Below, one piece after another: positions 442-19,324 of a stretch of 20,844 bases of DNA. The position numbers were made by a program, and so were the translations under genes. The stretch is from positions 1 through 20,844 of the IMG/VR virus record IMGVR_UViG_3300036804_000288, one strand, 5' to 3'. How positions within the stretch are numbered: position 1 is the first letter of the stretch; each line of letters begins with the position of its first letter. The stretch is from a virus. The notes beneath the pieces were generated by a model that had not been told where the DNA came from, searched no databases, and saw nothing but the letters and a program-made list of their open reading frames with translations.

Positions 442-1941
442 GTGTCCAACTTCTTTAAGGTCGCTTCCAGCTCCCTGCTGCCGCCCATTGATGGAGTCAC
501 TGTCTTTGTTGGTGACTTAGGTTACACACTCGATGACGGAGGCTTTTGGGACGCAGCGCAGCCTTCGGCCCCTCCCGGTGCAGCTCCTGTCTGGAGTTTT
601 GTGGACGTCTTGCGCGGGCCTCCGGGCCCACAGGGTGAACCGGGTTTCGGCTTACCGGGACCCCAAGGTCAGATCGGTCCTCCGGGTTTAATGGGCGGAA
701 GAGGGCCGCAGGGAGTTTCGGGCAAGAGTGCCATCAGCAATTTAGCCCAGGCAATCCAGATCCCGTGTGTCGGAGATCCGCCCTATACGATCCATGTCAC
801 CGACACCTCTTGGATGAGTGCCGGGATGCTGATCTTTATCCCCGGAGCCGGGACCTTCACGGTAATCGGCTCGCCGCTTGATCCAAACACAGTCCAGATC
901 CAGAATAGCGGCGACCCGGCTAACACGCCTTGTGGGACAATGCTAGGGGCCGGAGCCAGTGTCAGCGCAGCTAATCTGCGCGGGCCCAGTGGCGCGCAGG
1001 GAATCGCGGGGCCCGTGGGCCCCCCTGGCCCGCAAGGAGCGGGGGGAGAGAGTGTTTTCTCGACTTTAGCCCAAGCTTTTACGGTTCCCGCAGTAGGGGC
1101 TGTCGCCACTGCCTTTGTGCAGGACGCAAACCCCTTTAGCGCGGGCCAGATCGTCTATATCGAAGCGGGCGATTACTTCTCGGTCCAGAGCGTCAATACA
1201 GCTAACAATTCGATGGCCCTGGTTAATCAGGGTTATCCAGGCGGCGCGCCCGAAGGTGCCGTTCTACCTGTCGGCAACAACGTCTCTGCCACCGGTCCCC
1301 AGGGTCCCCAAGGACCCGCTGGGGTCGCTGGTCCGGCTGGGCCGCAAGGGCTCATGGGAGTGGCTCCTACCGGTTCCATCTTTATGTGGCCGACTCCGAC
1401 TCCTCCGGGCGGCTTTCTTGTGTGTGACGGCAGCTCCGTTGCGATCAGCGCCTTTCCGAATCTTTATGCGGTGATTTCAAACACCTTCGGAGCAGTCGAT
1501 GGCGCACACTTCAATCTGCCGCCTTTCAGTAATGGCATTTTCCCGGTGGGCGCTGGGGCTAACTATCCTTTAGCCAAATCTGTCACTGCCTCCGGCCAAA
1601 GAGGCGAAGCGACCCACACCCTAGTCACTGCTGAGCTGGCCACGCACGCGCATACAGCTACTTCAACCGTTAGCCCTAATCCCCATGCACATACCGCATC
1701 CAGCCCAGCGCACGCGCATAACCTGCAACAGCTAATCGATGATGCCCAGCGTGGATCAGATTTCAACGCTCTGAAATATGCCACTGGTGGGCCCAACCTG
1801 AGTACGCTAGGCACCGCAGCCGGGGTCACGGTTGACCCTACGGCACTCTCAGTCGCCACCGCCATTGCTAATGCCGGAAGTGGCGCTGCCCACAACAACT
1901 TGCCGCCATTTCTCGGCATCAACTTCATCATTAAAACGTGA
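442..1941 (+). CDS. Collagen-like tail fibre protein with phage collar domain
   Basis: This 499-residue protein probably forms a trimeric fibre that contacts the host surface. It starts at a GTG preceded by only a weak purine-rich site (AAAGAGAAAAG). Collagen-like Gly-X-Y blocks lie at about residues 59-95, 181-203 and 285-308. Two related beta-type modules sit between them (97-180 and 204-284), both with the pattern LAQA..VP..G. The C-terminal part matches the phage tail-collar domain: [20 protein letters not shown] at 311-330, then a FNLP motif near 357. HxH motifs follow (THAH, PHAH, AHAH, residues 401-426), and it ends [18 protein letters not shown], as such fibre tips do. HxH clusters bind iron in the T4 gp37 tip, so a metal-stabilised needle is plausible here. 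The stop overlaps the next start (GTGA). The role as a fibre is confident; the receptor is unknown. Confidence 0.88.
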
Positions 1942-4580
1942 GCAGCGGCACCCAATACTTTGTTAGTCCGATGCAGCCTGGAGTCAGGCCGCTAGATCCG
2001 CCTGACTATGACGGCATCACCTTCGTTTTCGTTTTCACTAACGTCATTGCTCCCTGGACCCAGCCTGCGGTTAACGCCAATGTCGTCTTAGTCGTTGCTA
2101 ACTCCCAAGGCTTTGTCCCTGGGATGACCATTGTGATCGGAGACGGTAACGGAGGCAGCGCCGGGTACTACGAAGTGGTCGATACCAGTGTTCTTGACCG
2201 GATGACGGTCATGAATTTTGGCACCGAATACAATCAGGACCCTGGCACCGGCTTTGGACCGGACAAGATCACAACTACTTCGTTACCTGGGCCACCCGGC
2301 GGAATCGGCCCGCAAGGTCCGGTCGGGCCGCTCGGGCCTCCAGGGCCTCCGCTAAACCCCCAAGGCACCGTTGCTACCAGTTCTGCCCTACCCGCTAGCG
2401 GCAATAATGAGGGCGACCTTTATGTCACCCTGGATACCGGCCATGGCTGGAGCTGGAATGGGAACAGCTGGATCGACACTGGCCCTTATCAAGGACCACC
2501 GGGACCGACCGGAGCCCAAGGGCCAATCGGACCAGTCGGACCCCAGGGAATCCAGGGAATTCCAGGCACCACTGGGGCACAAGGCAACCAAGGTCCAAGC
2601 GGACCTCAGGGCGTCCCTGGCCCGACCGGGCCAACCGGGCCGACCGGACCGACCGGGCCAAAAGGCAATGATGGCACCAGCGTAGTCCTAAAAGGATCAG
2701 TAGCAACTTTCAGCGCTCTGCCTGCAACCGGTAACACCTTCGGAGATCTCTGGGTCACGACCGACACCGGCCATGGCTGGGTCTGGAGCCAACCCGGTCA
2801 ATGGGCAGATGTAGGGCCGATTCAAGGCCCAGCTGGACCAGCTGGGCCAGCTGGGGCAACCGGAGCCGCTGGAGCCGCAGCTACGGCTAATGCTGGCACC
2901 ACTTCGACAGGGGCTCCCGGCACAAATGCCAATGTTACCAATGTCGGAACCCCGCAAGCGGCAGTCTTTGATTTTGTTATTCCCTCAGGATTAGCCGGTG
3001 CAGCCGGTGCAACCGGTGCTCAAGGACCCCAAGGAATTCCGGGTACAGCCGGAGCTACCGGAGCCCAAGGACCCGCAGGCGCGACTGGGAGTCAAGGTCC
3101 AGCGGGCGCAGCTGGCATTAACGCTTACACGATTACTAGCGCTCAGTTTACCGTGCCGCCAATCGGGGGCACGGTAGTAGTCACCTTCCAGAATGCTTCC
3201 TGGCTGGTCTTGGGCCAGTACGTGGAAGTAAAGACCGCTGGCGGAACCTCGGTCTCGGGCACCCTTCAGGTTACTAATATCAGCGGCAACCAAGTTACGC
3301 TGCTTAATCCTTCCATCCCCTCGCTAGCCTTAGCTAACACCACGGCAGCGGGACTGCTCGCCCAGGTAAGCGGTAATGCCACCGATTATATAGGTGGAGA
3401 TAATGCTCCTCATGCCCTGCCTCCCTCCGGTGTCAGCGCCGATGCCGGGAATATTGCCACGCTGGGCAGCGATAGCCGGATCTACGTGCCCGATCCCACG
3501 CCTGTCATCACCAGCGTGCGCCTGCGTAGTTTTAATGCCATCGGCAACCCGAACTTCGAAGTGGACCAGCGTAACGTAGGCAATGCAATCAGTTTGGCTG
3601 CGGGCAATGTGATTAAATTCGGTTGTGATCGCTGGAACTTAAATAAGAATGCGGCGACTGGTGCCGTCAATGCGGGACAAGGCGTATTAACATCCGTTGT
3701 CCCAGGCACTAATTTCCAGATAAGCTCCCGTGTTCTGCAATTAAACGTCGCGACCGCACAAGCCACCTTAGCGGCAGGTGAATATGTTTTCTTGCAACAG
3801 GCTGTTGAGGCACCGCAATTACGCGAATTGCTGGGAGACGTTCATTCGATTCAATTGCTAGTTAATAGTTCAGTTGCCGGTAATTTCACTTTGTGCCTGA
3901 GAAACGCTGCCACTACTTACACGTACGTCTCGGCTTTTAGCTTGGCGGCAGGTACATGGACCCTGATAACCATTCCTAACATCCCGGTTTGGGTATCGGG
4001 AGGAGGCTGGGCAACCACCCCTGGGTCGGTTGGTTACTACTTATCTATCTGCCTTGGGTCAGGCTCGACCTTTATCGCGCCTAGCGGGGCTGCCGCTGGA
4101 TGGCAGAACGGCAATTTCTTCGCCGCACCGGGTCAGACTAATTGGCTGGCGACAGCTAACGCCTATTTCACAGTCGCTTTTGTCCAGCATGAACCGGGAG
4201 CGGTTTGCGCGACACCAATTGATAAACCGTTTACGCAGAATTATGAGGAGTGTTTGCGCTACTACTGCAAAAGTTACGATTACGAAACAGCAATTGGGAC
4301 AGCATCGGCCGCAGCATCAACATCGGCTTGGCAAGGAAGTACTACGGGTTTTTATACTGCCACTAAATTTCCTAAAAATATGGCTAAACTGCCAACCGGG
4401 ATAATATATAGCTGGGCTACTGGTGCCGCGAATGCGACAAGATTCAGCGGCGTAGATTATGCCGTCACGTCAGTGAGTCTTGGAAAGAGTTATCTTGCGA
4501 GCTTTGGTACTGCAACCCTACCGGCTGTTGCTGCTGGGGCTACTACTAGCTTTCACTACACCGCCGACACCGGCTGGTAA
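1938..4580 (+). CDS. Large collagen-like tail fibre / receptor-binding protein
   Basis: This is an 880-residue modular fibre protein whose GTG start overlaps the previous stop. An N-terminal beta module (about 25-115) resembles those of the upstream fibre. It is followed by collagen-like stretches at about 117-140, 186-246, 297-315 and 354-393. Two near-copies of a short module, [20 protein letters not shown] and [20 protein letters not shown] (143 and 253 onward), each carry a DTGHGW core. [20 protein letters not shown] segment (320-338) is a common phage fibre insert. Another beta module spans 398-468. From about 535 ([10 protein letters not shown]...CDRW) to the end lies a jelly-roll or carbohydrate-binding type domain with the [18 protein letters not shown] motif found in many phage structural proteins. 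This C-terminus probably binds the receptor. It shares [15 protein letters not shown] with the next gene. Confidence 0.85.
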
Positions 4581-4589
4581 CCTCTTTTT

Positions 4590-6068
4590 ATGCCCGCAGC
4601 CATCCCAGGAACAATAGTTAACACCGGAGCCGGAGTCGGACCCGGCGGCGATATCGGTAGCCCCGGCGCTACGGGAACCTCCGGTCCTGCTGGCGCAACT
4701 GGGCCTGCTGGGCCTGCTGGACCTACCGGAGCTGCCGGAGACGCGGAAGTCGGTTCCATTAAAGCGTGGCCTAGTGTGACGCCTCCGGCCAGCTGGGCAC
4801 TCATTGATGGGAGTGCCGTCTCCCGCACCCTTTATCCACAGCTCTTTACTTTGATTGGCACAACCTACGGAGCGGGAGATGGATCGACCACCTTTAATCT
4901 ACCGGATCTCAGGAATAAGTTCATCCTGAATTACGGATCAGCGGCTGGCTTTACTGCACGCAACTTAGGCGACACGGGCGGCGAGGAAAATCACGTGCTG
5001 AGTATTGCGGAACTGGCGGTGCATACGCACATCCAGAACGCGCACGCACACACCGTGAATAACTCTCCAGTGAATACGACAGGAATTCTGCCGATAGCGG
5101 GTAGTCAGACTTGGACTGTAGCAAACGTTAATACTACAAGCGTTGCTGCCATTAACCAAAACACTGGCGGCGGCGCAGGACACAACACGATGCCGCCCTT
5201 CCTGTGCTTGGTGTACATCATCAAGATGTCACCCACGGGCGGTCCCACGGCCCAGGCTCCGATTGCGGATACGACCCAAGCTGGGTTACTGAATCCGGTC
5301 AGCGGCAATGCCACCGATTACGTGGGCGGCGATAACGCTAGTCATCCTCTGATCGTTCCGACCATCGAGTATTACGATCAGGATGATTTCATAACGATTA
5401 ATGGAGGACCGAATGCCAATACTAATTATAGCAAACTATTTATAGTTTCTAGTAGTGGAGGAGCCGGTGCGATTATTACTCTATCTAAAGGGAATTATCT
5501 CGGTCACTCTGGGGTTTTGCAGCTCGGTCCGGGCACTACCGCGAGTTCTTACGTCCGCGCCATCCTGAATAATTGGCTCTATCTGGATGGCAACATGACG
5601 ATTACGATTCAGGGCGTTATGACAGTTGGATCAGGATCTTTCGCCGGGACTAACCAATACTTTTTCGGGTTAACCAATAGCGGGGGTCCATTAATCGCAG
5701 CGGCTAATTCTTACGCTGGTTTTTTTGCTGCCGCTAACAGCAACGCTAACTGGCAGCTATATACCCGCAACGCAGCTACCGTTGTCGCTACTCCTACTAC
5801 AGTCCCAGTAGGAAACCAAGCATGGCATAAATTTAAAATCGTAGCGACCCTGAGCCAAGTCAGTTTTTATATTGATGACGTTCTAATGGGGACTGTGACG
5901 GACAGTTCGGTTCCCCCTGGCACCACCGATCTGTATACCGCCTTTTTTACTAACAATGGCAGCGGGACATCCAACTTTTCCTTAATTGTCGATTGCTTCG
6001 ATATTTGGCTCCAGCCGGTAGCGCAGTCCGGCCAACCTGCCACACGGTTCATGCGCAGCATTTTATAA
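4590..6068 (+). CDS. Collagen-like tail fibre with collar domain and lectin-like extension
   Basis: This 492-residue protein starts 9 bases after the preceding stop with no visible Shine-Dalgarno site (CCTCTTTTT before ATG). A collagen-like block covers about residues 22-50. The tail-collar domain follows: GSIKAWPSVTPPASWALIDG at 55-74, then GTTYGAGDGSTTFNLPDLR. HxH motifs (VHTH, AHAH) occur at 144-154, and the usual end motif, GHNTMPPFLCLVYIIK, occurs at about 197-212. Most fibres of this type end there. This one continues for about 280 residues through SGNATDYVGGDNASH (238-252) into a beta-rich domain (about 260-480) that looks like a laminin G / concanavalin-type lectin fold (NQAWHKFKIVATLSQVSFYI with DDVLMGTVTD). 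The lectin assignment is inference from pattern. It ends the three-gene fibre operon. Confidence 0.85.
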   Translation: MPAAIPGTIVNTGAGVGPGGDIGSPGATGTSGPAGATGPAGPAGPTGAAGDAEVGSIKAWPSVTPPASWALIDGSAVSRTLYPQLFTLIGTTYGAGDGSTTFNLPDLRNKFILNYGSAAGFTARNLGDTGGEENHVLSIAELAVHTHIQNAHAHTVNNSPVNTTGILPIAGSQTWTVANVNTTSVAAINQNTGGGAGHNTMPPFLCLVYIIKMSPTGGPTAQAPIADTTQAGLLNPVSGNATDYVGGDNASHPLIVPTIEYYDQDDFITINGGPNANTNYSKLFIVSSSGGAGAIITLSKGNYLGHSGVLQLGPGTTASSYVRAILNNWLYLDGNMTITIQGVMTVGSGSFAGTNQYFFGLTNSGGPLIAAANSYAGFFAAANSNANWQLYTRNAATVVATPTTVPVGNQAWHKFKIVATLSQVSFYIDDVLMGTVTDSSVPPGTTDLYTAFFTNNGSGTSNFSLIVDCFDIWLQPVAQSGQPATRFMRSIL

Positions 6069-6073
6069 AACTT

Positions 6074-6424
6074 ATGAACGGAGATCCACAAGTTGAGGCG
6101 ACGACCTTTGTGCCGCCCCCATTCCCAACGTGGCCACCACCTTCGGGCGGCGCGCCTTTTCCGGGCTCGGAAACCGGGCCCGTAACTAACCCTTATCCTT
6201 ACGGGAGTCCGCAGCCGCCTAACATCTCGACGGTGCAGCCGCCCCCGCCTTTTAACGGGATCAAGTACCCGCAGAGCGGCGGGACAGGTTTGATCGGCCA
6301 GAACCAGCCCCAAGCTCTGCCGCCCAATAACCGGCCATGGGAGACCGGGCCTCTGAAAGCTTCGCCGTCAATCAGCCAGATCCAGCCCCCGCCGATTATG
6401 GGGCCGGGATCGACAGGAACTTAA
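6074..6424 (+). CDS. Proline-rich small protein, WPPPSGG family member
   Basis: ATG at 6074 follows the fibre stop by five bases, in the leader AAAACTT with no Shine-Dalgarno site. The frame is open further upstream, but that part overlaps the fibre gene. The 116-residue product is about one quarter proline and begins MNGDPQVEATTFVPPPFPTW, then PPPSGGAPFPGSETGPV. The next gene has the related stretch PPFPVWPPPSGGYP...ESGPV, so the two are paralogues. The protein is probably extended and disordered. Its place behind the fibre genes suggests a virion or tail-associated accessory, but no function is recognised. Confidence 0.65.
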   Translation: MNGDPQVEATTFVPPPFPTWPPPSGGAPFPGSETGPVTNPYPYGSPQPPNISTVQPPPPFNGIKYPQSGGTGLIGQNQPQALPPNNRPWETGPLKASPSISQIQPPPIMGPGSTGT

Positions 6425-6430
6425 AAACTT

Positions 6431-6652
6431 ATGTCTAGTCCAATTACGCCAGCAGCCGGTCAGCTAGGATTGCCGCCTTTCCCAGTCTGGCCACCACCTA
6501 GCGGGGGCTATCCGGTGACCAGATGGGAGTCGGGGCCGGTTGCTGGTACACCCGCGCCGGGACGCACTTTCCCGGCTGGAAGCTTCATTGACGGTTTAGG
6601 CTCGGTGGTGACACCCACGGGCGTTGTCCGCACCATTGGAGGTCTAGGCTAA
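6431..6652 (+). CDS. Proline-rich small protein, paralogue of the preceding gene
   Basis: The 73-residue product begins MSSPITPAAGQLGLPPFPVW and continues PPPSGGYPVTRWESGPVAG, which lines up with the N-terminus of the gene at 6074. The C-terminal half, rich in Gly and Val (GLGSVVTPTGVVRTIGGLG), is different. Its start context ACTTAAAAACTTATG is almost the same as that of the 6074 gene and again lacks a Shine-Dalgarno site. The stop TAA overlaps the next ATG by one base. Function is unknown; the family resemblance suggests a duplicated virion accessory. Confidence 0.65.
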   Translation: MSSPITPAAGQLGLPPFPVWPPPSGGYPVTRWESGPVAGTPAPGRTFPAGSFIDGLGSVVTPTGVVRTIGGLG

Positions 6653-6969
6653 TGAACACACTGCAGGACTTGTTAGTCATTCTGGATGGCCAGCACCTTG
6701 GTGCTGGTTATCTGACTCCAGTAGGCACTGCGCCTAACGCGCCTAACGCACTGGAAACAGTGATCGCGCTTAAAAAAGGCTTCGATCCTTGGACGCTGGC
6801 CACTAACCCGCTCCCTGGTATGACCAACCAGCCGGGGGCTCCTAACATTCTGCTTTCACCGGCTTGGGTAGCCAGTCTAGGGGCTGGCCAGGACGCCATT
6901 TTCTTAGCCGGAGTAGATGGGAAACTCGATTTAAGTAAAGCCGGTCCTGCTTACATCTTCACCCCATGA
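6652..6969 (+). CDS. Hypothetical protein in the virion gene cluster
   Basis: This 105-residue protein starts inside the previous stop codon (TAATG) and has a Shine-Dalgarno site, GGAGG, nine bases upstream inside the preceding gene. The sequence MNTLQDLLVILDGQHLGAGY opens with an amphipathic helix. An NxP-rich middle (PNAPNALETVIALKKGFDPW) and a C-terminal segment with DGKLDLSKAGPAYIF follow. It is less proline-rich than its neighbours and could be globular. No family is recognised. The stop overlaps the next start (ATGA), which supports one operon. Confidence 0.65.
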   Translation: MNTLQDLLVILDGQHLGAGYLTPVGTAPNAPNALETVIALKKGFDPWTLATNPLPGMTNQPGAPNILLSPAWVASLGAGQDAIFLAGVDGKLDLSKAGPAYIFTP

Positions 6970-7379
6970 GCATCAATCCTCCTTTTCAGCCAATTAGTTT
7001 CCCGCCGGGGCCACCTACGATCCCGGCCTGGGAAGGCGGGCCAAGGCCTTTCGCGCCTTACAATGGCCAGAACCAGACTTCCGGCATCAATACGGCCAAG
7101 CCAGCCCCTCCGATGGAGCTGGGACCGGGTCCCGGCGACCCGGCTTTAAGCGCAGCCAAAGGCCGTTACGCGGGTTCTGGTTACGGGCCGGTAGGCCAAG
7201 GCACCATTGGGGTGGGCAACCCCGTAGCGGTCACGCCAGGGCCTCCTCCGGCCCAAGCCAGAATGTACGTCCAGGGCAATAACCTGATCATTCTGGACAA
7301 CACCACCGGCAACGCCTATGCGGTGCCCCTAGCCGTAGCGCTGGCCGCTCAACCTGCAGTCTATTCACCAACCAAGTAG
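6966..7379 (+). CDS. Proline/glycine-rich small protein with folded C-terminus
   Basis: The product has 137 residues. The first two thirds are Pro, Gly and Asn rich (PPGPPTIPAWEGGPRPFAPY), with a WEGGP motif related to the WESGP and WETGP motifs of the proteins at 6431 and 6074. The last 40 residues (ARMYVQGNNLIILDNTTGNA, then YAVPLAVALA) look like a short beta hairpin plus helix. The start overlaps the stop of the previous gene with no Shine-Dalgarno site. It is probably a member of the same virion-associated proline-rich set; function unknown. Confidence 0.65.
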   Translation: MSINPPFQPISFPPGPPTIPAWEGGPRPFAPYNGQNQTSGINTAKPAPPMELGPGPGDPALSAAKGRYAGSGYGPVGQGTIGVGNPVAVTPGPPPAQARMYVQGNNLIILDNTTGNAYAVPLAVALAAQPAVYSPTK

Positions 7380-7388
7380 AAAGGATCT

Positions 7389-7562
7389 ATGGCTAAGAAT
7401 TGGATCAAGGGTGCCATCAAAAAACCAGGGGCTTTGCATAAGGATCTAGGGGTTAAACAGGGCCAGAAGATTCCGGCTAAAAAGTTAGCTAAAGCTGCGG
7501 AAAAAGGTGGCAAGGTCGGGCAGCGGGCGCGACTCGCGGAAACCTTGAAGAAGTTTAAATGA
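7389..7562 (+). CDS. Short lysine-rich phage protein (KKPGALHKDLGV type)
   Basis: This 57-residue protein has ATG at 7389 with a Shine-Dalgarno site AAAGGA four bases upstream. It reads MAKNWIKGAIKKPGALHKDL, then GVKQGQKIPAKKLAKAAEKG and a basic helical tail. Very similar short proteins, with a K-K-P-G-A-L-x-x-x-L-G-V core followed by IPAKKL, recur in unrelated phage genomes, which is why I am confident it is real. The strong positive charge suggests nucleic-acid binding or a minor virion component; the role is not established. Its stop overlaps the next start (ATGA). Confidence 0.8.
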   Translation: MAKNWIKGAIKKPGALHKDLGVKQGQKIPAKKLAKAAEKGGKVGQRARLAETLKKFK

Positions 7563-7798: not shown

Positions 7799-8092
7799 AT
7801 GGCTAATGGCAATGGTAAGTTCCTTGCCTCTGACACCTTCCATCAGGCCCGACAGATTATGGCGGGCCTAGTCGGGATCGGGGTTGCTTGCATAGACCGG
7901 TGGAAGTTTCCGGGCGAGAACCAAGGCTTTTCTAATAACGTGGATGAGTTAGTTCTTTTGATCAGTTTAGGAGTTTTAGCCGGAGCCGCCGGTTTATTTC
8001 GCACTGCAGCAGTGCTGAGAGCTGACGAACCAGGGACGGAAGCACCAAAGGAGGTGCCTCATGATAAGTCCTCAGGAACTAGCGAAAATTAG
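7799..8092 (+). CDS. Candidate holin (small membrane protein)
   Basis: This 97-residue protein lies directly upstream of the lysozyme-like gene and overlaps it by 32 bases. It has a weakly hydrophobic stretch at about residues 20-33 (IMAGLVGIGVACID) and a clear membrane segment at about 51-72 (LVLLISLGVLAGAAGLFRTA). Its tail is hydrophilic and charged (DEPGTEAPKEVPHDKSSGTS). Size, topology and position fit a holin or similar lysis-timing protein that opens the inner membrane for the endolysin. No sequence family is recognised, so the call depends mostly on context. The Shine-Dalgarno site of the next gene lies within its last codons. Confidence 0.5.
   Translation: MANGNGKFLASDTFHQARQIMAGLVGIGVACIDRWKFPGENQGFSNNVDELVLLISLGVLAGAAGLFRTAAVLRADEPGTEAPKEVPHDKSSGTSEN
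8047..8056 (+). promoter_or_regulatory. Near-perfect Shine-Dalgarno site of the lysis enzyme
   Basis: AAAGGAGGTG matches the 16S rRNA anti-Shine-Dalgarno sequence almost completely and ends four bases before the ATG at 8061. It is the strongest ribosome site in the window and stands out because many neighbouring genes have none. It lies inside the 3' end of the holin candidate and fixes the start of the lysis enzyme. Confidence 0.85.
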
Positions 8093-8744
8093 AAATGTTC
8101 TGATTGTAGCGGAGCAAGGTAAGCAGGAGATGGCCTACAGCGACGTCTACATTTACCGGGACGGGCCCGGCGGCGTCCGGCAGATCACTTTATCCATCGG
8201 CTTCACCCAGTACGGCAACCTGGGGCCGCTGGTGGCTGCTTATGCGGAGAGGACCGGGAAATTCAGCCAGCAGATCAACAAGTTTGTCGGCAGGATGCGG
8301 GAGGCCGATCTAGTTAACAATGCCGAGTTTATTAACCTCTTAAAAGAGGCGGGCGAGGACCCGGTGATGCAGCAGACCCAGGAAGAATTATTTGATAAGT
8401 TCTATCTAACTCCGGGCGTCAAATGGGCGGCAGACCAAGGCTTCGTTCTGCCGCTGAGCAATCTGGTCATCTGTGACAGTTATCTGCATTCGGGTTCGAT
8501 CCTACCTACTATCCGGTCGCGGTTCCCCGCAAAGACGCCTACTAACGGCGGGCAGGAGAAGGCCTGGATAAGCCAGTACACTGACGCTCGCCAGAACTGG
8601 TTAGCCAACCATTCAAACACTCTTTTGCACGTCACGGTTTACCGGACCAAGTATTACAAGGAATTGATCGCGACTGATGATTGGGAGTTAGATGGCTACT
8701 CTAAAATCGCCATGAACGGCATTAAGCCTCTGGCTGTTGCCTAA
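8061..8744 (+). CDS. GH46 chitosanase/lysozyme-fold enzyme, putative endolysin
   Basis: The 227-residue protein has the length and pattern of glycoside hydrolase family 46 (chitosanase, lysozyme-like fold). An early Glu (E18, in VAEQGKQEMAY) and an Asp (D34, in YIYRDGPGGVRQITLSIGFTQYGN) sit about where the two catalytic acids of GH46 lie. The central region, EELFDKFYLTPGVKWAADQG, followed by LPLSNLVICDSYLHSG and later QYTDARQNWL, follows the family layout. In a phage next to a holin candidate, the likely substrate is cell-wall peptidoglycan, making this the endolysin. A true chitosanase acting on a host capsule or chitosan-like polymer is the alternative. No signal peptide is seen, so export would need the holin. 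The fold call is from recognition, not a search. Confidence 0.7.
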   Translation: MISPQELAKIRNVLIVAEQGKQEMAYSDVYIYRDGPGGVRQITLSIGFTQYGNLGPLVAAYAERTGKFSQQINKFVGRMREADLVNNAEFINLLKEAGEDPVMQQTQEELFDKFYLTPGVKWAADQGFVLPLSNLVICDSYLHSGSILPTIRSRFPAKTPTNGGQEKAWISQYTDARQNWLANHSNTLLHVTVYRTKYYKELIATDDWELDGYSKIAMNGIKPLAVA

Positions 8745-10074: not shown

Positions 10075-10369
10075 CCGAGGGTCAAAGCCCAAGCCGGTAG
10101 TCCAAAACGTCCAGCAGGTCCATTTCCAGCCATCCAGACCCTATCCCTGCTATGTGCTTGGCCCCGGCGGCGAGCCGGTTAAGCCGATGCCCAGCGCCTG
10201 GACCCAGAAGGTCGGAGTGCCGCCATACAACCTGCGGGCGCTAACCTTCCCTTCAACGACCGGGCCCTACACCTACATGATCAGTACAGGCTTGACCGGC
10301 CCCGGCGGCGCGGACGCAGTGGTTGGTTCCGGCGGGCAGGCTAGTCAGCACAACCTTGGCTTAAGCTAG
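10064..10369 (+). CDS. Hypothetical proline-containing protein
   Basis: The start chosen is ATG at 10064, which has AGGA four bases upstream and gives 101 residues beginning MCVDRGSKPKPVVQNVQQVH. The frame is open from 9935, but that part overlaps the 9838 gene. The sequence includes FQPSRPYPCYVLGPGGEPVK and a Gly-rich C-terminus (GLTGPGGADAVVGSGGQASQ). It loosely resembles the proline-rich proteins at 6074-7379 in composition. The stop codon shares the tetranucleotide CTAG (10366-10369) with the stop of the converging minus-strand gene. Function unknown. Confidence 0.55.
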   Translation: MCVDRGSKPKPVVQNVQQVHFQPSRPYPCYVLGPGGEPVKPMPSAWTQKVGVPPYNLRALTFPSTTGPYTYMISTGLTGPGGADAVVGSGGQASQHNLGLS

Positions 10370-10716
10370 TTGTCAGCTGACAACTTGTCTTTGGGCTCCC
10401 ACTCAGGCAAACCTTCGAGGATCTGGAGGGAGTCCTCGCCGGAGAGGTTAGCAACCACCCACCACTCGCGGCCTTCGCGGAACTCAGCCAGGAGCAAGTG
10501 GAGCTGATCGGTCCTGCCGTCCCCCGGCCAAGTGGAGGCATTGCCCCAGTAGTTGCGGTGGACGCTGAAACGGTGAAAGGGCGAGTGGACGATGTAAGGC
10601 GACTCCTCACTCCACCTGTGGATGAAAGGCAGCGCCAGTAATTCCGCTTGGGTTTTAACCTCCGCGATCACGGGCCGGGAATCGACAAAGCCGGGGATAT
10701 GCTGCCTGACTTTCAT
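10366..10716 (-). CDS. Hypothetical phage protein, WWVV motif
   Basis: This 116-residue protein starts MKVRQHIPGFVDSRPVIAEV, continues with the helix TQAELLALPFIHRW, and has a C-terminal beta region LHLLLAEFREGREWWVVANL. Small phage proteins with this layout (a PGFV start, an LL-x-[IL]-PF-V helix, a WWVV strand near the end) are frequent and uncharacterised. The ATG overlaps the stop of the upstream gene (ATGA), so the two are coupled. The C-terminus overlaps the converging gene by only four bases. Confidence 0.7.
   Translation of the reverse strand: MKVRQHIPGFVDSRPVIAEVKTQAELLALPFIHRWSEESPYIVHSPFHRFSVHRNYWGNASTWPGDGRTDQLHLLLAEFREGREWWVVANLSGEDSLQILEGLPEWEPKDKLSADN
10368..10385. repeat. 18-bp perfect palindrome at convergent gene ends
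   Basis: AGTTGTCAGCTGACAACT is its own reverse complement. It overlaps the shared stop codons of two converging genes. As RNA it could form a 7-bp hairpin with an AGCT loop on either strand, so it may act as a weak bidirectional terminator. It lacks a T-run, so a protein-binding site is an alternative. Confidence 0.5.
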
Positions 10717-12432: not shown

Positions 12433-12537
12433 TAGGGGATCAGCTGTCCGCTGACCGTGACCTCTGGAGAACTCGCTAGTTTACCGCTCCGAGGGACAAC
12501 AACGATCCATGGGCCGGTGAGACCCCGGCTCCCCTAG
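12433..12537 (+). ncRNA. Candidate structured RNA with tRNA-like closure (leader of the next gene)
   Basis: TAGGGGA (12433-12439) pairs perfectly with TCCCCTA (12530-12536) as a 7-bp closing stem. Inside it, TCAGC/GCTGA form a 5-bp arm with a 5-base loop (12440-12454). A longer irregular arm (12457-12497) includes CCTC/GAGG and AACT-CGCT-AGTT. GCCGG/CCGGC form a 5-bp stem with a 7-base loop, TGAGACC (12513-12529), placed exactly where a tRNA T-arm would sit. At 105 bases, with no 7-base anticodon loop and a poor T-loop, it is not a normal tRNA. It ends 13 bases before the ATG at 12551, which has no Shine-Dalgarno site, so it may control that gene. Folding was done by eye. Confidence 0.35.
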
Positions 12538-12550
12538 ACCTTATGAACCT

Positions 12551-12910
12551 ATGAGCGCGAAACGAAAAGTAGTGCCTTTCCGCACACCGGGCCAGCTCGC
12601 CGGGGACGCGGCCATGGCCCAGGTCTTAGCCAACGAGCGCGAAGCCTGGAAAGCGCGGGCGACTGCCTTCCTGATGCGCGAGCCGGTAGATGCCCCCTTC
12701 AGCATCGAGACCCTGCGCTTAGCCTTAGAACCGATAGTGGGCAGGCCCCACCATCACAACACCTGGGGTGCTATGACTAACTCTTGGATACGCGCCGGAC
12801 TGATCATCCCGCTGGAGCTGAAGGAGCATATGCGCACCGAGAAAAGCCACGGGCGCTCCACCGATCTCTACGAGTGGCCCACCCGCCCAGGGATCGAATG
12901 CGACCTCTAA
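12551..12910 (+). CDS. Winged-helix-like phage protein (HPNAWGA-type)
   Basis: This 119-residue protein begins MSAKRKVVPFRTPGQLAGDA. A helix (VLANEREAWKARATAFLM) leads to PFSIETLRLALEPIVGRPHH and then HNTWGAMTNSWIRAGLIIPL. The layout, P-F-x-x-E-x-L-R, then P-x-x-x-N-x-W-G-A, then R-x-G-L-I, is that of small phage and plasmid proteins with a winged-helix look, and ends with a substrate-like tail (KSHGRSTDLYEW). A DNA-binding or replication-linked role is plausible but unproven. No Shine-Dalgarno site is visible. A minimal reading frame ATG-AAC-CTA-TGA (12543-12554) overlaps the start. It is the last gene before the iteron block. Confidence 0.65.
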   Translation: MSAKRKVVPFRTPGQLAGDAAMAQVLANEREAWKARATAFLMREPVDAPFSIETLRLALEPIVGRPHHHNTWGAMTNSWIRAGLIIPLELKEHMRTEKSHGRSTDLYEWPTRPGIECDL

Positions 12911-12939
12911 GACTCGGTCCAATTCCAACGCATGCCGTT

Positions 12940-12961
12940 GGTTTTCCAGCGCTGGAAAACC
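12940..12961. repeat. 22-bp perfect palindrome
   Basis: GGTTTTCCAGC is followed directly by its reverse complement GCTGGAAAACC. A second small hairpin, CCGCTC/GAGCGG with a 5-base loop (12960-12976), follows at once. There is no T-run, so it does not look like a terminator. It resembles a site for a dimeric DNA-binding protein. It lies 30 bases after the stop of the 12551 gene and 18 bases before the iterons. Confidence 0.8.
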
Positions 12962-12978
12962 GCTCGCTCGGAGCGGAA

Positions 12979-13038
12979 TTGCACCCATTTGCACTTCCCT
13001 GCACCTACTTGCACCTACTTGCGCGTAGTTGCGCAATG
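12979..13038 (+). repeat. Six iteron-like 10-bp direct repeats
   Basis: Six units follow each other with no gaps at a strict 10-base period: TTGCACCCAT, TTGCACTTCC, CTGCACCTAC, TTGCACCTAC, TTGCGCGTAG, TTGCGCAATG. The first six bases are the most conserved (consensus TTGCAC). A further pair of 9-bp repeats, ATGTCGTAG and ATGTCGTCG, follows at 13036-13053. A 10-base period places every site on about the same face of the helix, as in iteron origins and cooperative operator arrays. No coding frame explains it. Confidence 0.8.
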
Positions 13039-13073
13039 TCGTAGATGTCGTCGAACAGAATTCTGACCCTTTG

Positions 13074-13112
13074 GGGCCCCTATCGTTAGCACCGATAAGG
13101 GCCCTTCCTTTT
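13074..13112 (+). terminator. Rho-independent terminator of the 11243-12910 operon
   Basis: GGGCCC-C-TATCG (13074-13085) pairs with CGATA-A-GGGCCC (13093-13104) around a 7-base loop, TTAGCAC, with one internal mismatch, and is followed by TTCCTTTTTA. It separates the plus-strand operon from the converging minus-strand gene whose stop is at 13112. It closely resembles the terminator at 9456 in its GGGCCC stem and 7-base loop. Confidence 0.87.
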
Positions 13113-13639
13113 TAGAAATCCTCGCGCGAGTTTACTGCCCGCAGAGCCAGTCTCACCTTCTTGGCCGCATACTCAACGTCATCGAGCGAGTCACTGAGTC
13201 GCTCGCGTTTGATTCGGCTTTTTATGTATTTGAGTGCGATGCGAAGTGCCGTGACCTCGTTTTGCCCCATATTGGAAATGAGACTAAGCGTGCCTCTGAA
13301 TCCTTGTCGGGCATATGCCCGGTACTTTTCATCCATGATAAAGCTGCCCTGGTCGTCCACTAAAACCGGAAAGTAGCAACGCTCCTCTGGGTCGGGACCT
13401 CGTTTTACATGAGGGACACTCCAGCCATATTGGGCAGCGTGTTTCCTTAAGTGAAAGAGCGCCTGCCCGATCATGGCTAGACTAACCTCCTGGCCTAGAG
13501 GTATCAGCTTCTGTTGGATTTCCTTCATCGATTTTGAGGGGAGAACCACATAAAGCTCGTCTATCAAGAGGTCCATTTTAGACCGTCTCTCGGGCGGCTC
13601 ACCGCCGCCTCCGTTTGGGAAAGGAATTGTTCCTGACAT
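13112..13639 (-). CDS. Hypothetical helical protein, possible DNA-binding
   Basis: This 175-residue protein has GGAG nine bases before the ATG at 13639. After a Gly/Pro-rich start come helices (KMDLLIDELYVVLPSKSMKE, then IQQKLIPLGQEVSLAMIGQA) that could form a helix-turn-helix. A middle segment contains PDPEERCYFPVLVDDQGSFI, and a C-terminal helical part reads GQNEVTALRIALKYIKSRIK...LDDVEYAAKKVRLAL. No family is recognised. It starts four bases after the stop of the upstream 277-residue gene. Its distance from the iteron block (about 60 bases from its stop) makes it a candidate partner for those sites. Confidence 0.65.
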   Translation of the reverse strand: MSGTIPFPNGGGGEPPERRSKMDLLIDELYVVLPSKSMKEIQQKLIPLGQEVSLAMIGQALFHLRKHAAQYGWSVPHVKRGPDPEERCYFPVLVDDQGSFIMDEKYRAYARQGFRGTLSLISNMGQNEVTALRIALKYIKSRIKRERLSDSLDDVEYAAKKVRLALRAVNSREDF

Positions 13640-13642
13640 AAG

Positions 13643-14476
13643 CTAGTGCTCCATCACCGACAAGTGTCCTCGTTGATCGACAACTTCCTTGCGCACCAGC
13701 TGGGCCGCTTCCTTCCAGGCATTGGCTGCTTCCAGAGCACATTCGGTAAGACCGGCGACCCCTTTGACAGTCAGCTCATGGACGCTGCCCTCGATTACTT
13801 CGATTGCTTCCCGCGCCAAGACGATTGCTCGCTCGGCATTGGCGGTAAAAGTGGCCTCAGCAAGGAGCACTGGCACCTCTGTTTCGGCGGGTGGCTGGAG
13901 CGGAGGCATTTGCCTTCTGGGAGGCACTTTGGCCGCTTGTTCCGCCTTTCTTGCTGCCTCGGTTCGTTTGGCTGCTTCCCGATGTTCCTCTTCCAGCGCC
14001 TTACGCTCGGTAGCGTCTTTGGCCGCTTTAGCCCTAGCTAACTTCTCCCTCTCCTTGGCCTCAGCTGCTTCGCGTTTAGCCTGGGCTTTCTCGAAAGCCT
14101 CCCGGCGCGCCCGTTGCTCGTGATCTCGAATTCGGTCCACAATCTTGCGGACGTACCTGTGGCTGATCACCGCCCCTTTAGGCGCTCCCTTAATGACGGC
14201 CTCAAGCATTTGTGGAGTCTCTGCCTCTTGGTGAACCACAAACGATAATTCGAGGCGCCTCGATTTAGGAGGAAACGCCGCTGCCACTTGCCGCATCTGC
14301 CGGAGCCATTCTCCAGTATACTCCTGTCCGTTAGCCTGTAAGTAGGTTACAACTTCATCCAATGTGCCTTTGCTAGAATCAGCCGGGCACTCTTTCAGGA
14401 GCGCATCCCCCAGCTCCCATAGCGAACTCTTGTTCTTCTTCGCCGCTGCAAGAGTCAGCGGATAATTTTGTTTCAT
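13643..14476 (-). CDS. Putative DNA-binding regulator with long coiled coil (DUF6192/ParB-like architecture)
   Basis: This is a 277-residue protein. The N-terminal domain (about 15-115) contains SLWELGDALLKECPADSSKG, then TYLQANGQEYTGEWLRQMRQ and later FVVHQEAETPQMLEAVIKGA. This helix-rich order, a helix-turn-helix-like YTGEWLRQMR followed by fP..R...S...H..A, recalls DUF6192-type and actinophage regulators. It is followed by a long charged Ala/Glu/Lys/Arg coiled coil (about 116-182), a Pro-rich hinge (PPRRQMPPLQPPAE) and a second helical domain. The design, a DNA-binding head, coiled coil and C-terminal oligomerisation domain, would suit a repressor or a partition/replication protein. The family match is from memory and uncertain. 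A TTGACG/GATTTA promoter ends eight bases before the ATG. Confidence 0.65.
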   Translation of the reverse strand: MKQNYPLTLAAAKKNKSSLWELGDALLKECPADSSKGTLDEVVTYLQANGQEYTGEWLRQMRQVAAAFPPKSRRLELSFVVHQEAETPQMLEAVIKGAPKGAVISHRYVRKIVDRIRDHEQRARREAFEKAQAKREAAEAKEREKLARAKAAKDATERKALEEEHREAAKRTEAARKAEQAAKVPPRRQMPPLQPPAETEVPVLLAEATFTANAERAIVLAREAIEVIEGSVHELTVKGVAGLTECALEAANAWKEAAQLVRKEVVDQRGHLSVMEH

Positions 14477-18161: not shown

Positions 18162-18319
18162 CTCCGGCAGTTTAGGAAGTTTTCAGCCCAGCCGATCAGA
18201 TCATGCATCATGTAGCTGGTCATTGGTTTGTTGCCATGATAGCCACCAACAATAGTCACTACGATTCTACGAATCGAGGGAGCAAAAAACTGAATCAAGA
18301 TTCGATCAATTAGCTTCAT
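18158..18319 (-). CDS. 53-residue hypothetical protein
   Basis: ATG at 18319 overlaps the stop of the HTH gene and gives 53 residues: MKLIDRILIQFFAPSIRRIV, then VTIVGGYHGNKPMTSYMMHD and LIGWAENFLNCRR. Two hydrophobic stretches (LIQFFAP, IVVTIVGG) are broken by Arg-Arg, so it is either a small peripheral membrane protein or a globular beta/alpha fold. The frame is open upstream, but that overlaps the HTH gene. Function unknown. Confidence 0.55.
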   Translation of the reverse strand: MKLIDRILIQFFAPSIRRIVVTIVGGYHGNKPMTSYMMHDLIGWAENFLNCRR

Positions 18320-18900
18320 GGTGGTGCTCCTGGGGCCAGCTCTACCGGCAGGCTGTCCACTAGTCGGTTGATGGCTGGCAACTGGTTCTGGACCCATACT
18401 AGGACGTTACGCGGCTCGCCACTGGGCCTGCGCTCGTCCGGCTCTGTGCCGGTCAATTTCGCCCGCCGCTCAATACACTTCAGGGTAATCGTCGCCGCTT
18501 TGTCGTCCCCGGCTTTGGCAGCGGGATAGAAGGTCTGTAAAAGCCCATCAACTCGTGCCAGATCCAGAGCACGATTCTGTTCCACGTTTTCTTTGATGTC
18601 TTCGGCGATGGCCGCATGGGCTTCCTTAATTAGAGTTTTGGCTGCTTCGATAGAAAGCGAAAACTCATGCGCCACCTCATAGATCGGCTTGCCGCTCAGG
18701 CGCATGTCCCAGGCCTTCAGAGCGTCTAGGACGCGTGCTGGGCCCAGCTCCGCTATCAACTCACCTAAGTGAGGCGCGGGCGCGTCTGGGGCCAACGTCG
18801 TGGGCTCCGGCAGACGCATGGGAACCACGTTGGTTCGCTGCCTGTCGCGGGCCGCATTTAATGCGTGCAAAACCGGATCGTTGTCAGTACTTTGAGGCAT
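18316..18900 (-). CDS. Small-terminase-like helix-turn-helix protein
   Basis: The ATG at 18900 (MPQSTDNDPVLHALNAARDR) gives 194 residues; the longer frame to 19029 would overlap the divergent gene. A helix-turn-helix lies at about 71-95 (GKPIYEVAHEFSLSIEAAKT, then LIKEA). It is followed by ENVEQNRALDLARVDGLLQT then FYPAAKAGDDKAATITLKCI and ERRAKLTG. The block R-x-L-D-L-A-R-x-D-x-L...P-A-A-x-x-G-D-x-x-A-x-x-x-x-L-K...R-R-x-x-L is characteristic of phage small terminase or terminase-like HTH proteins, which bind the packaging site. No large terminase is adjacent, so a DNA-binding regulator is an alternative. The C-terminus is Pro/Val-rich. Confidence 0.65.
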   Translation of the reverse strand: MPQSTDNDPVLHALNAARDRQRTNVVPMRLPEPTTLAPDAPAPHLGELIAELGPARVLDALKAWDMRLSGKPIYEVAHEFSLSIEAAKTLIKEAHAAIAEDIKENVEQNRALDLARVDGLLQTFYPAAKAGDDKAATITLKCIERRAKLTGTEPDERRPSGEPRNVLVWVQNQLPAINRLVDSLPVELAPGAPP

Positions 18901-19324
18901 GCTTACGACAAACCAGAGGAAACCAGTTGAGACGCCACCTGTCAAGATTCGGGCCCTCTTAATAGATCCATTTAAATGCGAATGCTTTCCCCTGCTCGTC
19001 GACTGGGCCGACCAAGCCGATATCCACAAGCTCTTAGACTGCGAGCTAATCCACTCGATCCGGTGCCATGATGATCTCCTGTGGGTCGACGAATCGGGCC
19101 TCTTGCGCGAGCCTTTCGTCTATCCTCAGTTCAAGATCCGAGGCGTAAACGGCGATTGCCCACTCACCGGCTACGGCCTCATCACCGGAGGCTGGACTTA
19201 CAAGCACGTCACTGGCTGCAGCGTCTTTACTACTTCGTTGTCCATTATATTTGAGGAGCATTGGCCCAGGCGGATCAATCCAGACCAATGTATTGATCAG
19301 CTCTTGCGGCTCTATCTTCCTTAA
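18899..19324 (+). CDS. DUF3846-like protein
   Basis: The 141-residue product has KIRALLIDPFKCECFPLLVD at 17-36 followed by HKLLDCELIHSIRCHDDLLW then VDESGLLREPFVYPQF and LTGYGLITGG. The order A-L-L-I-D-P-F...L-L-x-C...L-W-V-D-E-x-G-L-L...L-x-G-x-G-L-[IV]-x-G fits the N-terminal region of DUF3846 proteins, which are common in phages and of unknown function. The ATG at 18899 is the only good start. It shares CATG with the start of the divergent HTH gene. There is no clear Shine-Dalgarno site, only GAGG directly before the ATG. It leads the plus-strand set to the window end. Confidence 0.65.
   Translation: MLTTNQRKPVETPPVKIRALLIDPFKCECFPLLVDWADQADIHKLLDCELIHSIRCHDDLLWVDESGLLREPFVYPQFKIRGVNGDCPLTGYGLITGGWTYKHVTGCSVFTTSLSIIFEEHWPRRINPDQCIDQLLRLYLP

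Follow-up and report, generated by a model that had tools for sequence, protein, structure and literature searches.

The 201-bp non-coding gap at 12911-13111 of the window (the whole of an IMG/VR record of the virus class, 20,844 bp in length, which carries no completeness estimate) contains a real and statistically solid DNA control site, in which both an array of short direct repeats and a larger dyad exceed what chance would provide. We put at about an even chance the reading that this is a cis-acting DNA site, recognized by a phage-encoded DNA-binding protein and serving a DNA transaction.

Anatomy and surroundings of the site

The gap holds a palindrome, hairpins, iterons and 9-bp repeats (Table 1), and it is convergent, in that both neighbouring genes end there. 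A first-pass annotation of this DNA had described a 22-bp perfect palindrome (GGTTTTCCAGCGCTGGAAAACC), a small hairpin, six TTGCAC-type units at exact 10-bp spacing and two 9-bp repeats, and each of these is present. The palindrome lies at the centre of a dyad of approximately 70 bp (12916-12985) that had been overlooked, as had a second small hairpin, which reaches 6 bp if the adjoining CC/GG is borrowed.

Table 1. Features of the convergent gap and its neighbouring genes (window coordinates)
Feature	Position	Strand	Remarks
Upstream gene, 119 aa, GRPHHxNxW motif	12551-12910	+	Candidate binding protein
Left outer arm, GGTCCAATTCC	12916-12926		Inverted repeat with 12975-12985
Small hairpin, AACG-CATGC-CGTT	12927-12939		Sequence and minimum-energy folds; weak alone
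22-bp perfect palindrome, dyad core	12940-12961		Centre 12950.5
Small hairpin, GCTC-GCTCG-GAGC	12962-12974		Extended form CCGCTC-GCTCG-GAGCGG at 12960-12976; sequence and folds; weak alone
Right outer arm, GGAATTGCACC	12975-12985		Includes first iteron, ends TTGCACC
Six-iteron array, unit TTGCAC/CTGCAC/TTGCGC	12979-13034	+	Units exactly 10 bp apart
Tandem 9-bp repeats, ATGTCGTAG / ATGTCGTCG	13036-13053	+	Sequence
Probable intrinsic terminator of the plus-strand operon	13074-13110	+	12-bp stem with one mismatch, then TTCCTTTTT
Converging neighbour, 175 aa	13112-13639	-	No recognisable family
Next minus-strand gene, 277 aa, charged coiled-coil-like middle	13643-14476	-	No recognisable family

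No other palindrome in the contig is as long, and when the contig was shuffled 60 times with dinucleotides preserved, one of equal length arose once; by itself the 22-bp palindrome is unusual, short of impossible by chance. (The second-longest, the 18-bp perfect palindrome AGTTGTCAGCTGACAACT, is found at overlapping gene ends at 10368-10385.) The outer arms are concentric with the palindrome and pair at 10 of 11 positions, an arrangement equalled, at any offset, in 5 of 20,000 shuffles of the flanks. The left arm, when read on the minus strand (GGAATTGGACC), is a degenerate inverted copy of the iteron TTGCACC, which appears there as TTGGACC. Each of the 13-base stretches that separate the core from the arms folds into a 4-bp hairpin, and the two are not mirror images of each other; what is solid in the dyad is the pair of concentric arms, the two small hairpins being without independent significance.

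The iterons begin at 12979, 12989 and 13009 (TTGCAC), at 12999 (CTGCAC), and at 13019 and 13029 (TTGCGC). In a 6x6 periodicity score they reach 33/36, the top value of the contig at periods of 7-30; shuffling the contig 60 times gave at most 28 and shuffling the region 300 times at most 26, and chance is excluded for the array. The earlier placement of the whole site in the 3' UTR of the plus-strand operon, ahead of its terminator, is plausible, with the open reading frame at 12551-12910 ending just before it and a terminator-like stem present on the plus strand only; that stem is missing from the list produced by a stricter terminator scan.

The labels 'winged-helix' and 'DNA-binding' that had been attached to the flanking genes were confirmed neither by family searches nor by structure predictions, whose models, built without relatives, were too poor in quality for use. 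Apart from one locus (L223), no relatives of the 12551, 13112 and 13643 proteins were found in the viral contigs, phages, plasmids or genomes searched, and these proteins are near-orphans. The exception is a distant relative of the 12551 product (27% identity, phmmer E 4e-6); the 12551 product itself has a weak match to phrog_38279 (E 0.006). In L223 the relative lies directly downstream of a gene that was judged by eye to be replication-type and winged-helix-like, the two occupying 6400-6870 and 6925-7401. With the flanking proteins as queries no close relative of the record was found, and the exact 22-mer palindrome has no match elsewhere in viral contigs.

The record itself is a phage fragment without known close relatives, its status as a fragment following from the lack of any recognisable capsid, portal or large-terminase gene in the 20.8 kb. 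To the left of approximately 12.9 kb most genes read rightward, and to the right of that point most read leftward. The left block contains tail-collar and collagen-like genes, a 57-aa gene, a GH46 family hydrolase and small unassigned genes, and the right block includes a KTSC-domain protein. The product of 18316-19029, also in the right block, resembles the small terminase of Arthrobacter phages (36% over 93 residues), and its family bears the PHROGs label 'Rnase E'. Three consecutive tail-fibre-like genes (442-6068) all carry collagen repeats, weak in the third, and two of them carry phage collar domains. The lysine-rich 57-aa gene (7389-7562) is a small, widely exchanged phage gene: at least 583 relatives occur in viral contigs that otherwise show no relation to the record, and the 80 of these loci that were compared have almost nothing else in common with the window. 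The GH46 (chitosanase-family) hydrolase at 8061-8744, found amid tail and late genes and perhaps a lysis or cell-wall enzyme, yielded no relative in a tblastn search of phage records.

Folding of the segment as DNA or as RNA

A single strand of the dyad segment, whichever is chosen, can fold as a four-way junction with no unpaired bases at the branch. The site might accordingly be viewed as a structured RNA, in which the 3' UTR of the plus-strand operon forms the gapless junction, is followed by the repeats and the terminator, and provides a stabilising 3' end or a small RNA. Its location, after a stop codon and ahead of a probable terminator, agrees with such a role, as do the folding z-scores: -4.5 for the 201-nt plus strand and, across 12914-12987, -5.0 for the minus strand (the lowest of 1124 windows of 74 nt) and -4.3 for the plus strand (the fourth lowest). 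However, the minus strand folds equally well, and all 27 of the 27 pairs in the junction are Watson-Crick, with no G-U pair among them. When the palindrome is kept fixed, 4% of shuffled flanks and 7.5% of flanks taken from the contig match the fold energy, which is then moderately unusual at most. The array is unremarkable in structure (z -1.6), no Rfam family matches the site, and an RNA role leaves the exact 10-bp repeats unexplained. When the two strands of the site were used to build a covariance model of the junction, the only match to that model in the window was the site itself, and 0.98 Mb of array-bearing loci gave none. Because the strands fold alike, with all pairs Watson-Crick, and because the array is not specially structured and Rfam offers no match, a DNA site is preferred, and a structured RNA appears rather unlikely.

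TTGCAC arrays in other phages

The pattern TTGCAC-N4-TTGCAC-N5-TGCAC was found in 99 viral stretches (62 distinct) and its version spaced at 11 bp in 113 (80 distinct), and such triplets recur in unrelated phages. A simple chance estimate had suggested a strong excess, which a scrambled motif at 10-bp spacing, present in 45 viral stretches (26 distinct), cut to approximately twofold above this one control. As these counts indicate, short direct repeats spaced at one helical turn are common in phages generally, and the TTGCAC motif by itself names no function. A literature search for the motif returned no matching system and no description of arrays spaced at one turn.

The neighbours of the arrays are mixed, with no single gene family common to their flanks. 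Among large ORFs within 2.6 kb, tyrosine integrases account for 10 of 101 near the 10-bp arrays and 8 of 108 near the 11-bp arrays, versus 3 of 106 further away; for large terminases near the 10-bp arrays (Terminase_6N), the corresponding figures are 12 of 101 and 2 of 106. Some arrays adjoin D5-type primases (L069, L027); an array region of L069 has no match in E. coli genomes. Since ORFs from one locus are not independent in these counts, the moderate enrichment of integrases and terminases, like the presence of some primases, is a lead only. Perfect stems of at least 7 bp lie beside the 10-bp arrays in 14 of 60 cases upstream and 11 of 60 downstream, versus 12 of 216 random places, although intergenic DNA abounds in terminators in any case. 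At eight loci in unrelated phages (L106, L131, L153, L184, L023, L037, L066 and L025), TTGCAC arrays spaced at 10 or 11 bp are closely trailed by inverted copies (GTGCAA), and these are two-sided iteron arrays.

A proposed docking site for a DNA transaction, and its counterparts

Six units set approximately one helical turn apart present themselves on one face of the DNA, where monomers of a protein might bind side by side, head to tail and cooperatively. The adjoining dyad, whose arms carry oppositely oriented copies of the iteron, could then serve as a core for a dimer or tetramer of the same protein or of a partner. We infer that the protein is encoded by the phage and that its role would be in replication start, site-specific recombination or packaging; about half of the weight within this reading is placed on replication initiation, its largest single share, and the rest on recombination or packaging. 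The array and dyad, both beyond chance, argue for a docking site, as do a fold that is wholly Watson-Crick and equal on both strands (and so suits DNA better than RNA), the recurrence of the triplets elsewhere, with integrases and large terminases somewhat commoner near them and D5-type primases beside some, and the precedent of BldC as a head-to-tail binder of direct repeats. Against it stand the absence of an AT-rich region, the sizeable count for the scrambled control, and the fact that no binding protein and no replication, recombination or large-terminase gene was found in the record.

A DNA transaction is favoured over promoter control because the site sits between the ends of two converging genes and not in front of a gene. 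That a phage repressor or activator might occupy the repeats and palindrome as an operator, and thereby control nearby transcription, is distinctly unlikely on the same grounds, and no promoter-like match was found within 12911-13111; direct-repeat arrays and palindromes are nonetheless common operators, and BldC sites are similar in spacing (PMC5859096). A special case of the docking-site explanation, counted separately here, is a recombination or telomere-resolution site of the attP or N15 telRL type, with a central palindrome, inverted arms and a one-sided set of further, degenerate arm-motif copies. The dyad with its concentric arms, the repetition of the right-arm motif and the position at the boundary of two gene blocks (a usual place for an attP) all fit such a site. 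However, attP, telRL and pac sites need cognate enzymes, and no tyrosine integrase, serine resolvase or protelomerase domain, nor a large terminase, was found in the 20.8-kb record; core and arms are, in addition, separated by 13 bases, and we consider this proposal at least as doubtful as an operator.

The first-pass annotation had favoured a replication origin or partition site. An iteron origin should come with an AT-rich stretch and replication genes; for a partition site one would look for an NTPase. Tandem direct repeats at regular spacing are certainly present (six units, 10 bp). The best 40-bp window within 12500-13700 is 62% AT, whereas 15 other places in the contig reach 68-78%, and an adjacent AT-rich unwinding element is thus not evident. 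The GC-skew, which had been put forward as a check, shows no turn beyond that of gene orientation, with which its local change coincides. No ParA-type ATPase, DnaB helicase (DnaB_C) or D5 primase (D5_N) was found in the record; as the record is a fragment, such gene absences, here as for the recombination and packaging enzymes above, carry little weight. We consider a ParR- or ParB-type partition centromere highly improbable: some centromeres typically carry short iterons spaced at approximately one helical turn, but no adjacent ORF resembles a partition protein, and neither a ParA-type domain nor an adjoining pair of NTPase and adaptor genes was seen (actin- and tubulin-like NTPases being sought through Pfam scans of selected ORFs). 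The origin or partition reading found no independent support, although to view regularly spaced repeats next to a dyad as a place of protein docking is fair.

We regard as a long shot the more ambitious idea of an undescribed cis element from a phage lineage not yet charted, where a 70-bp dyad able to form a cruciform would seed a one-sided, head-to-tail filament on 10-bp TTGCAC iterons, for example as a new hairpin-telomere, integration or origin site; were this true, the recurrent 10-11 bp arrays in unrelated phages would mark a widespread docking 'code'. If the docking-site reading is confirmed, the gap is likely to be where an otherwise unclassifiable phage starts replication, recombines or packages its DNA, and would offer a tractable case of the one-turn-spaced TTGCAC arrays that many unrelated phages carry next to integrase, terminase and primase genes.

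The broad kind of site, direct repeats that bind protein, is already known. We file the site under no named family, since the AT-rich element and partition NTPase were not found and other cognate enzymes are absent from the fragment. Like iteron origins (the phage lambda ori with its O protein, and those of P4-type primases), it places tandem direct repeats of one orientation beside inverted repeats; it differs in having no AT-rich unwinding region, in a record where no initiator, helicase or primase was found, and its iterons are 10 bp apart as against about 20 in lambda. The attP sites of tyrosine integrases combine an inverted core with arm-type direct repeats, an arrangement that is shared here along with the boundary between gene blocks, whereas the centre here is fully symmetric and the record has no integrase. 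The N15 telRL site has a core telO, L3/R3 and degenerate flanking copies of its motif (PMC12624138), and thus resembles the present site in its central palindrome, flanking inverted motifs and degenerate extra copies nearby; in contrast, telRL has a 56-bp palindromic core, whereas stretches of 13 bases that do not mirror each other split core from arms here, and the record contains no protelomerase domain. BldC, a small MerR-like protein, binds direct repeats approximately one turn apart as a head-to-tail filament, its repeats being 9 bp with the consensus AATTXXXXC and located in promoters (PMC5859096). The present repeats differ in motif (TTGCAC), in spacing (10 bp) and in their convergent location, yet share the spacing of about one helical turn that allows filament-like binding, and by analogy the site would work like a cooperative direct-repeat binding site.
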